A DNA stretch of 64,000 nucleotides from Synechococcales cyanobacterium GL140_1_metabat_312 (GTDB lineage: Bacteria; Cyanobacteriota; Cyanobacteriia; Leptolyngbyales; Leptolyngbyaceae): the NCBI GenBank assembly GCA_025351345.1, contig JANXWB010000028.1:1-64000 (forward strand). The letters run 5' to 3'. Below, one piece after another: positions 5,903-25,062 of this stretch. The notes under the pieces are model-generated. The model had not been told where the DNA came from, searched no databases, and saw only the letters and a list, made by a program, of their open reading frames with translations. How positions within the stretch are numbered: the first letter of the stretch is position 1; the number at the start of each line of letters is the position of its first letter. The position numbers and the translations under genes were made by a program.

Positions 5903-7375
5903 ATGTTCCCGACTGAAGATTTGCTTGTTGCCAACCATGAACATCCGGACAAGCCCGAAGAAGCTTGTGGAGTTTTTGGTGTATTTTCCCCTGGGGAAGA
6001 TGTTGCAAAGCTGGCGTATTTTGGTTTGTTTGCACTTCAGCATCGGGGACAGGAGTCGAGTGGGATTGCAACTTTTGATGACAACAAAATGGTGCATCTC
6101 CATAAAGATATGGGGCTAGTCGCTCAGGTTTTTAATGAGACTATTTTGAATGCGCTACCGGGACCGATGGGCGTGGGACATACGCGGTATTCGACCACGG
6201 GTTCAAGTCGTGCCGTGAATGCCCAGCCTGCGGTTGTGAAGACAAGTCGGGGTTCCCTGGCTTTGGCCCATAACGGGAATTTGGTGAATACTGCCACCTT
6301 GCATGGGGAGTTGTTGGAGCGTAGCCATAATCTCTTAACGACGACAGATTCAGAAATGATTGCTGTAGCGATCGGGGAGGCGGTGGATGATGGTGCGGAT
6401 TGGACGACCGCGATCGCTACAGCCTGCAAGCGATCGGTTGGGGCCTTTAGTTTGGTGATCGGGACTCCGGATGCGCTGTACGGAACAAGGGATTCAAATG
6501 GAGTGCGGCCTTTGGTCATTGGAACGTTGCCACGGGAGCATCCGACGGATCCAATTCGCTATGCATTAGCTTCAGAGACCTGTGGATTAGATATTGTTGG
6601 AGCGGATTTTGTTCGAGATGTAGAGCCGGGTGAGCTGGTTTGCATTACGAAAACTGGAATTACTTCAACGCGATGGGCGGAAAAAGTCGATCATAAACTC
6701 TGCATTTTTGAAATGATTTATTTTGCACGGCCTGACAGTGTGATGAATGAGGAAACGCTGTATACCTATCGGATGCGAATTGGTCGGCAGTTGGCCAAAG
6801 AATCGACGATCGATGCCGATATTGTAATTGCAGTCCCCGATTCAGGAATTCCAGCGGCGATCGGCTTCTCTCAGGAATCGGGAATTCCCTATGCTGAAGG
6901 GCTGATTAAAAATCGGTATGTAGGACGGACCTTCATTCAGCCTACTCAAGCCATGCGGGAAGCTGGAATTCGTATGAAGTTAAATCCCCTAAAAGATGTG
7001 CTGAAGGGTAAACGGGTCATTATTGTCGATGATTCAATTGTTCGCGGGACGACTAGCCGAAAGATTGTCAAAGCATTGCGGGATGCGGGTGCAACGGAAG
7101 TTCATATGCGAATTTCGTCGCCGCCCGTGACCCATCCTTGTTTCTATGGCATTGACACCGATAATCAGAGTCAGTTAATTGGGGCAAAAATGACTGTATC
7201 GGAAATTGCAGACCATATCGGTGCGGATTCCCTAGGCTATTTATCTCTGGAGGGAATGCTGAAGACGACCCATCAAGATACAAGCCATTTTTGCTCGGCC
7301 TGTTTTGATGGCAAGTATCCGATCGAGATTCCTGAAGTGCTAAAACGATCGAAGTTGATATTGGAAACAGCGTAA
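5903..7375 (+). CDS. purF: PurF, amidophosphoribosyltransferase
   Basis: PurF commits PRPP to purine synthesis by replacing the pyrophosphate with the amide nitrogen of glutamine. The 490-residue protein starts with a 21-residue propeptide ending PEEA, which would be removed to expose the catalytic Cys22 of CGVFGVFS. The class-II glutaminase domain includes HRGQESSG and HTRYSTTGSS. The phosphoribosyltransferase domain has the PRPP loop VIIVDDSIVRGTT. Cysteines at the C-terminus (HFCSACFDGKYP) fit the iron-sulfur-bearing B. subtilis-type enzyme. ATG 5903 is the natural start. The gene ends at a strong hairpin shared with the convergent gene at 7446. Confidence 0.96.
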   Translation: MFPTEDLLVANHEHPDKPEEACGVFGVFSPGEDVAKLAYFGLFALQHRGQESSGIATFDDNKMVHLHKDMGLVAQVFNETILNALPGPMGVGHTRYSTTGSSRAVNAQPAVVKTSRGSLALAHNGNLVNTATLHGELLERSHNLLTTTDSEMIAVAIGEAVDDGADWTTAIATACKRSVGAFSLVIGTPDALYGTRDSNGVRPLVIGTLPREHPTDPIRYALASETCGLDIVGADFVRDVEPGELVCITKTGITSTRWAEKVDHKLCIFEMIYFARPDSVMNEETLYTYRMRIGRQLAKESTIDADIVIAVPDSGIPAAIGFSQESGIPYAEGLIKNRYVGRTFIQPTQAMREAGIRMKLNPLKDVLKGKRVIIVDDSIVRGTTSRKIVKALRDAGATEVHMRISSPPVTHPCFYGIDTDNQSQLIGAKMTVSEIADHIGADSLGYLSLEGMLKTTHQDTSHFCSACFDGKYPIEIPEVLKRSKLILETA

Positions 7376-22626: not shown

Positions 22627-25062
22627 ATGAACCCCCATAATAAAGCTACGCTATCTGAGGATTCAGTAGGAACGACAAATTCACTAACTGCCCTGCGTAA
22701 ACAGACTGAGCAGCAGCGAGCGCTGACTCGGGTAATCAGCCGAATTCGTGAATCTTTAGAACTGAATGTGACTTTTGGGACGACGGTCACGGAAGTGCGA
22801 GAATTACTAGAAGCCGATCGGGTAGCGGTATTTCAGTTTGATCCGAGTCGTGATTGGGAAGGCGAGTTTATCTCTGAATCTGTGAAGCCTGACTTTTTGT
22901 CAGCGCTAGCAACCAAGGTTTATGATCATTGCTTTGGGCCTCAGTATGCTGCCTTCTACGAAACTGGACGAATGCAGGTGGTCGATGACATTCTGAATAC
23001 AAATCTCAGTCCCTGTCATATGGAGATTTTGGGTCAATTTCAGGTGCGATCGAATTTGGTTGTGCCCTTGTTGCGAATGGGAAAGCTTTGGGGATTATTG
23101 TGTGTGCATCAATGCGATCGGCCCCGAAGCTGGACAGAATCTGAAATTGAATTCGTAAGTCAAATTGCAGAACATCTTAATATTGCCCTTCAACATAACC
23201 AACTGCTCGAAGATGCTCGCTATCAGACAAAGCAACAAAAAGCGCTGACTAGCATCATTAACCATATTACTGAATCTTTGGATATAGACACAATTTTCAA
23301 TACTACTGCCTTGGAATTGCGACAACTCCTCAAAGCCGATCGGGTGGGTTTATTTTATTTTCTTCCTAATCGTAGTTGGGAAGGGATGTTCATTGCAGAA
23401 GACGTCGGTCTAGAGTGGGAAAGTGCTCTGAATTCAGAGGTTTATGATCATTACTTTGGCGAGAATTTTGCAGATCATTATGCAGATGGGCGAGTACAAG
23501 TAATCTCTGATATTCATAGGGCTGGGTTGAGTGCTTGCCATGTTGACCTTTTGGCTCAATTCCAAGTTCAAGCTAACCTAGTTGTTCCAGTTCGTTTAAG
23601 TAAGACGCTTTGGGGTTTACTCTGCGTTCATCAATGCGATCGGCCTCGAATTTGGGCAGAATCTGAAATTGAATTCATTCGTCAAATTTCCGACCAACTG
23701 GCTCAAGCCATAGAACGCGATCGTGCGAGGAATCGTCAACAGCTTCTAACCTCAACCATTGAAAAGATACGAACTTCGTTGGAATTAAATATTGTATTTA
23801 GCAGTACTACCGCTGCTGTGCGGGATTTATTAAACGTAGAACGTGTCGCCATTTATCGCTTTAACAAAGACTGGAGCGGTAAATTTGTCGCCGATTCGAT
23901 TATGGACGCTGGATCAGATTTAAGAATTTCATCGCTCGCCAGCTTAGTCAAACTGGGGCAACCTGATGAAACTGGGGAATACCCGCGCAATGAGACCTTT
24001 GTTGCAATTCCCCAAGGCGAAAAATTGTGGGGCTTACTTGTGGCCTATCAAAATTCTCAGCCCCGCTATTGGCAAAATGAAGATGTCAATCTGTTAACTC
24101 AAGTCGGACTCCAGCTGGGTGTGGCCATTCAGCAGGCCGAACTCCTATCGCAAACAAAACAACAAGCCCTTAAGCTTTCACAAACGGTCGCTGAGCTTCA
24201 ACAAACTCAAACCCGATTGATTCAAGGTGAAAAAATGGCGAGTCTGGGCCAGTTGGTTGCAGGCATTGCCCACGAAATTAATAATCCTGTCAATTTTATA
24301 CATGGAAACTTAATTCATGTGGAGCAATATACTCAGAGTTTATTAAAAATTGTTGAACTCTACCAAACCCTATATCCAGATTCAAATGAAGTGCTTGATA
24401 TTGCTTATGAAGTAATGGATTTGGCTTTTGTGATTGAAGATTTGCCAAAAACGATCGCATCCATGCAGCTTGGGACCGATCGGATTCTGGATATTGTGTT
24501 GTCATTGCGTAATTTTTCTCGGATGGATGAGTCCGATTTTAAAAAAGCTAATCTTCATGAGGGTCTAGATAGTACATTATTAATTCTAGGCCATCGTCTA
24601 AAATCAAACGGACGTCAGCGCAGTATTATCATTAATAAAAATTATGCGGACCTACAATCCATTGAATGTTACCCTGCTCAGCTCAATCAAGTCTTTATGA
24701 ACATTCTGAGCAATAGTATTGATGCCCTCGAAGGGATGATGGCACTCGACCCTAACTTCATGCCAGAAGTTACATTGACAACACAGAGGCTAAATTCTGA
24801 TCAAATTACAATTACGCTCGCAGACAATGGTCCTGGAATGTTCGATGAGGTTCGAGCGCGCATTTTTGATCCCTTCTTCACCACTAAAGAACCCGGTAAA
24901 GGCACAGGTCTTGGCCTCCCCATTTGCTATCAAATCATTCATGAAAAACATGGTGGAAATCTTGAATGTCGCTCCGTACTTGGATCGGGAACAACGTTTA
25001 TTGTCACTATCCCAACAACTGTTGCGGCAGTTCAACAGAGGCGAGCCGATCGCATCCAATAG
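22627..25062 (+). CDS. Triple-GAF histidine kinase with two cyanobacteriochrome-type GAF domains
   Basis: An 811-residue soluble sensor kinase with no membrane segment. GAF1 (about 45-195) and GAF2 (about 215-365) both have the bilin-lyase-type core ending in Cys-His (Cys130-His131; Cys304-His305), then [11 protein letters not shown] / [11 protein letters not shown] and [17 protein letters not shown]1 also has Asp-His-Cys-Phe with Cys102, the DXCF second cysteine, 28 residues before the canonical one. GAF2 has Tyr276 there. GAF3 (about 375-510) is degenerate and has no Cys-His. A coiled linker leads to a complete kinase: H-box AHEINNP (His549), N-box [25 protein letters not shown] and [10 protein letters not shown]. 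It is predicted to bind phycocyanobilin-type chromophores and phosphorylate a response regulator that is not encoded next to it. Bilin binding is inferred. Confidence 0.85.

Follow-up and report, generated by a model that had tools for sequence, protein, structure and literature searches.

A candidate multi-cyanobacteriochrome histidine kinase whose second GAF domain appears to have lost a cysteine and part of the linker that follows it

Gene and domain organization

We analysed a 64,000-nucleotide stretch of DNA, hereafter the window, and found that its forward strand carries a gene encoding three GAF domains followed by a histidine kinase (GAF1-GAF2-GAF3-kinase, 22627..25062). The gene was delimited from its stop-free frame, which translates into 811 residues, from Pfam matches, and from three orthologues. 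L001 and L002 belong to the same genus (80% and 64% over the protein, respectively), and L047 comes from outside it; the scan of genome contigs for relatives found two. The L001 locus is syntenic and adjoins a glycogen phosphorylase gene.

The protein matched the Pfam GAF family over three stretches (204 bits, cut-off 22.4). The only other Pfam domain was the catalytic HATPase_c domain (PF02518, 81 bits against a cut-off of 26.4) at residues 683-797 (24673..25017, forward strand), so the GAF domains stand alone without a PHY domain. Read from the sequence, the phospho-acceptor is His549 (24271..24273, forward strand) in an H-box reading HEINNP; inspection by eye also located the N, G1, F, and G2 boxes. 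HisKA, the Pfam dimerisation and phospho-acceptor family, gave no match to the protein at E 0.001; the H-box is nonetheless present. By motif, the histidine kinase is complete, as a preliminary description of this DNA had proposed. No response regulator was found in the nine neighbouring genes scanned, and the protein is thus an orphan kinase as far as seen. A full-length structure model built from three sequences was poor (pLDDT 51) and was set aside.

Relative to L001, dN/dS was 0.06 for GAF1, 0.30 for GAF2, 0.09 for GAF3, and 0.16 for the kinase. With no domain above 0.30, the gene has been kept. A genome-wide search for GAF domains returned 33 matches, the two highest-scoring of which were GAF1 and GAF2 of this gene. 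The genome also encodes PcyA (NF002760, 336 bits, cut-off 206) and a heme oxygenase, so PCB should be available.

Lineage of the GAF domains

We constructed a tree of 68 rows that included reference cyanobacteriochromes. GAF1 and GAF2 fell into one DXCF clade (support 99/96), whose sister group is the red/green XRG clade (98/91), while GAF3 lies inside XRG (100/100). In the preliminary description, a grouping of both GAF1 and GAF2 with non-photosensory GAFs would have counted against the proposal; the tree instead places both among cyanobacteriochromes. Two more specific placements were rejected by AU tests on forced groupings: GAF1 in the TePixJ lineage (p = 0.0007), and GAF2 in the "DXYF" lineage, grouped with PPHK and an NpR3784 derivative (p 4.2e-9).

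Close tandem relatives were found in 74 of the 386 cyanobacterial genomes sampled. When the best of these loci were added in a quick tree, the DXCF clade reached 68 rows (SH-aLRT 99), most of which combine DXCF with one Phe in beta2 and another in helix 4. GAF1 and GAF2 have the stretch CVHQCDRPR in common. Gene conversion between them was considered as its source and discarded, as the local nucleotide identity of 0.80-0.85, against about 0.72 in L001, is too weak.

GAF1 is a predicted dual-cysteine sensor

GAF1 occupies residues 35-195 (22729..23211, forward strand) and was identified by profile match, tree, structure model, and fold search. It has the motif D100-H-C102-F followed by C130-H131. 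Codon reading gives TGC for Cys102, the second cysteine of the DXCF motif (22930..22932, forward strand), and TGT for Cys130, the canonical bilin cysteine of the Cys-His pair (23014..23016, forward strand). The two are 28 residues apart, the same spacing that we counted by eye in the PDB-derived sequence of TePixJ. Both the motifs and the spacing had been noted in the preliminary description, and the codons and the PDB sequence agree with it. In an alignment of the window protein with L001 and L002, Asp100, Cys102, and Cys130-His131 do not vary.

Sequence searches against solved structures matched GAF1 and GAF2 to their closest cyanobacteriochromes at E 1e-36 to 1e-38, and to PPHK (6OAP), NpR6012g4, miRFP670nano, AnPixJg2, RcaE, and TePixJ at E 1e-24 or better; resemblance of this order goes far past what chance would give. 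A model of GAF1 built from six homologous domains had a pLDDT of 88.5 and a pTM of 0.87. In a VIA fold search, it aligned with PPHK (Z 25.3, rmsd 1.6, 168 residues aligned), AnPixJg2 (Z 24.8), and TePixJ 4FOF (Z 22.7, rmsd 2.6 over 157 residues). Taken with the motifs, this suggests that GAF1 is very likely a dual-cysteine photosensor, with a bilin on Cys130 and a reversible C10 adduct through Cys102.

The earlier assignment of GAF1 as a dual-cysteine, short-wavelength domain with the cysteine spacing of TePixJ is thus retained, but a place in the TePixJ lineage is not. The blue/green TePixJ GAF (PDB 4FOF and 3VV4) resembles GAF1 in its DXCF motif, its Cys-His 28 residues further on, and the fold seen in the model. 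However, it belongs to another DXCF lineage, it serves a chemotaxis transducer rather than a kinase, and it has Val and Leu at the beta2 and helix-4 positions, where by alignment both sensors of the window protein have Phe (F81 and F138 in GAF1, F255 and F312 in GAF2). This Phe pair has been implicated in trapped-twist teal photoproducts (PMC5240096). Because GAF1 lies outside the TePixJ lineage and has the Phe pair, the blue/green cycle of TePixJ is not the preferred guess at its colours; a teal photoproduct is predicted to be likelier than a green one. GAF1 likely belongs with the teal-DXCF domains (NpR1597g1 type) and DpxA, which is teal/yellow (PMC4937213), as judged from the Phe pair in a DXCF domain and a position next to the red/green clade.

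Over GAF1 (22807-23286, codons 61-220), synonymous divergence from L001 reaches its maximum, with pS of about 0.62-0.64 compared to 0.30-0.45 in most of the remaining gene, even though protein conservation is highest in this stretch. The peak may stem from recombination involving a more distant relative.

GAF3 is a degenerate red/green domain

GAF3 (23746..24141, forward strand) shares the XRG clade with NpR6012g4, AnPixJg2, and Slr1393g3, but unlike these it has lost the cysteine-bearing helix. Compared to GAF3 of L047, which is an intact red/green-type domain, it lacks 28 residues at about 24001 that include this helix. Both cysteines are missing and there is no Cys-His, although the clade membership holds; the preliminary description was right to call the third GAF degenerate. 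The loss predates the split of the three congeners. With the helix gone, GAF3 should not bind bilin, and we regard it as very probably blind. The domain has nevertheless stayed well conserved since the loss (90% against L001), which suggests that it probably kept a structural role.

Other ligands are known for GAF domains in general, and with pigment loss already seen in GAF3 of the same protein, one could suppose that neither GAF1 nor GAF2 binds bilin in the cell and that both are ligand-binding or purely dimerising domains of cyanobacteriochrome descent. We consider this most improbable, given the genus-wide invariance of the GAF1 bilin-site residues, the retention of the DXCF and Cys-His motifs in its clade, and the capacity of the genome to make PCB.

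GAF2 lacks the second cysteine and has changed faster

GAF2 occupies residues 209-369 (23251..23733, forward strand) and was identified as a DXCF-clade domain by profile match, tree, and AU test. Its motifs are D274-H-Y276-F and C304-H305, so that the second cysteine of D-x-C-F is absent. The canonical bilin cysteine, Cys304, is encoded by TGC (23536..23538, forward strand) and Tyr276 by TAC (23452..23454, forward strand), in agreement with the preliminary description. By codon comparison, the same position encodes Cys in both congeners, where the motif is DHCF (TGC in L001, TGT in L002), and also in L047 (DHCF, TGC). The Tyr codon is therefore a novelty of the window lineage, for which a single G>A change at 23453, turning TGC into TAC, is the simplest origin. 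The earlier placement of GAF2 as a longer-wavelength type therefore needs revision: it is a single-cysteine domain as claimed, though not of an old longer-wavelength type but a DXCF domain that recently lost its second cysteine. NpR3784 and PPHK, the latter a dual-input histidine kinase with a green state at 562 nm (PMC11480761), share DXYF and the canonical cysteine with GAF2. They form a separate clade, and the Tyr of GAF2 arose independently.

The second cysteine has been lost independently in other kinases of the clade, and the loss in GAF2 is an ordinary event for this family. It is replaced with the canonical cysteine retained in the second GAF of L090 and L102 (DRFF), the third GAF of L093 (EDRF), and the third GAF of L105 (DERF). 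The proteins of L090, L102, and L093 each have an intact DXCF domain as well. In the wider clade, both cysteines are gone from the third GAF of L095 and the second GAF of L088.

Using L002 as the outgroup, we counted 17 lineage-specific substitutions in GAF2 of the window protein and 6 in L001 (p = 0.035). The corresponding counts elsewhere were 6 and 9 in GAF1, 5 and 6 in GAF3, and 13 and 14 in the kinase. The excess in GAF2 over the remaining domains gave a Fisher p of 0.026; both p values are modest, and GAF2 was singled out from four domains. Among 64 positions conserved in the clade, 11 were lost from GAF2 of the window protein, 4 of them in its N-terminal helix, compared to 3 in that of L001. 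Apart from Cys276, the core bilin site is kept (Asp274, Phe277, Tyr285, Arg289, Cys304, His305, and Phe312). It is thus quite probable that GAF2 still holds a bilin at Cys304, with no adduct at C10.

A separate observation concerns GAF2 of L002 (locus 6649-7170), in which DHCF and Cys-His are retained while the conserved GR has become GG. The constraint on GAF2 may thus be relaxing in at least two species of this genus.

A deletion in the GAF2-GAF3 linker

Protein and DNA alignments showed that the window copy lacks 60 bp (20 residues, in frame) of the GAF2-GAF3 linker that is found in both L001 and L002. The junction lies in the linker helix at 23689..23702 (forward strand). In L001, the piece that is absent from the window copy is flanked by the near-repeats GCCGACCAACT and GCCGCCCAACT. 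Between fixed anchors, the linker shortened from 97 to 77 residues, and the register of the helix was altered.

We measured linkers between tandem GAF domains and found that 26 of 36 are multiples of 7 (77, 84, 91), while a length of 97 recurs where the next GAF is of red/green type; two misplaced anchors in this survey were re-read by eye as 97. The idea that the deletion simply disrupted the linker found no support, since the remaining 77 residues are a multiple of 7 like those 26.

The codon for Tyr276 was read from one assembly and turns on a single base, and both congeners have Cys. An assembly or sequencing error could therefore have hidden a kinase with two dual-cysteine DXCF sensors like those of the congeners. 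This is very unlikely: 16 further lineage-specific changes in GAF2 and the adjacent in-frame deletion point to real divergence, and members of the clade have shed the second cysteine on several occasions.

The recent cysteine loss, the extra substitutions, and the deletion mean that decay or rewiring must be considered seriously alongside selection for a second colour. GAF2 may be decaying after GAF3, which would leave GAF1 as the sole working photosensor in this species and the protein as a single-colour switch with two passive GAFs. The substitution excess, a dN/dS well above that of GAF1, the lost conserved positions and cysteine, and the shortened linker are consistent with such decay, for which GAF3 itself and the domains of L095 and L088 that lack both cysteines are precedents. 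On the other hand, GAF2 has kept Cys304-His305, Asp274, and the other residues of the core pocket, its dN/dS lies well below 1, and the deletion is in frame and left a linker length like most measured. We regard decay as a credible but doubtful explanation. The reading that we prefer is that GAF2 remains a bilin-binding, single-cysteine sensor.

Proposed mechanism and significance

We propose, as the somewhat more probable account overall, that the protein is a soluble multi-cyanobacteriochrome sensor histidine kinase derived from a DXCF-DXCF-red/green-kinase ancestor. Its domain identity, lineage, cysteines, loss events, and pigment-synthesis genes are read from sequence, and from these we infer bilin binding, colours, and signalling. 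GAF1 would carry phycocyanobilin on Cys130, possibly isomerised to phycoviolobilin, and the reversible C10 adduct of Cys102 would give it a short-wavelength photocycle, whose photoproduct would more likely be teal than green. In GAF2, the bilin would still be attached to Cys304, and the change of Cys276 to Tyr would make a C10 adduct impossible and shift the dark state to a longer wavelength. Its colours would be red-or-orange/green if PCB is kept, or green/teal if PVB is still made, as it is in a variant of AM1_6305g1 whose second cysteine was replaced by Ser (PMC11284453). GAF3 would serve as a blind structural link. Photoisomerisation would rearrange the helices that join the GAF domains to the kinase and thereby alter autophosphorylation of His549, with the partner response regulator encoded elsewhere.

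It is possible that one protein compares two colours in this way. However, since Tyr276 is recent, stems from a single substituted base in a protein that otherwise has two DXCF domains, and is accompanied by signs that constraint has shifted, a colour-comparing role takes on a different meaning. IflA of Fremyella diplosiphon is reportedly a four-colour receptor (Bussell and Kehoe 2013, cited in PMC4937213), a single protein able to sense more than two colours; by this precedent, a receptor that senses several colours is nothing new. With multi-colour receptors and DXCF cysteine loss already known, the protein is ordinary as a photoreceptor type. What is new is the 60-bp deletion in the GAF2-GAF3 linker and the concentration of the lineage's substitutions in GAF2.

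In heptad terms, a loss of 20 residues equals a gain of one (-20 = +1 modulo 7). Shifting the register by one residue inverts the light response of the LOV kinase YF1 (PMC6798134). By analogy, C276Y could have retuned GAF2 to a longer wavelength while the deletion rotated the helix register and so inverted or re-phased the drive of the kinase by GAF1 and GAF2, although we consider this combination unlikely. If it were true, the congener would retain the un-rewired parent, and the colour retuning and polarity inversion could be reconstructed stepwise, comparable to the engineered YF1.

Many optogenetic and fluorescent tools come from cyanobacteriochromes, which are a main source of them, and changes in their colour sensing have mostly been studied through engineered cysteine swaps. 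The congener protein, about 80% identical and with the ancestral cysteine, offers a ready-made comparison and a natural experiment, in which the effects of a naturally altered base in one of two tandem sensors and of a change in linker register could be measured directly.

Other photoreceptor loci in the genome

Two further loci were observed in the same genome. The first (L067, G000:C95:104500-107600) encodes a paralogous kinase of 676 residues with a DHCF GAF, in which Cys-Tyr replaces Cys-His, and a further GAF; the second GAF of the relative L012 is of red/green type. This kinase may be more plainly a two-colour receptor than the window gene. A Pfam search of the genome for phycobilisome proteins identified ApcA-, ApcB-, ApcD-, ApcF-, and ApcE-like proteins and no obvious CpcA/CpcB pair; the assembly is scored 99.99% complete, and the pair is either missing from it or truly absent. 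The second locus (L065 and L056, G000:C12:6500-13300) contains a 615-residue GAF kinase that groups with RcaE (100/83), an OmpR-type response regulator, a phycobilisome-linker-like protein, and a bilin reductase fragment, and looks like a chromatic acclimation locus of the RcaE/CcaS type.
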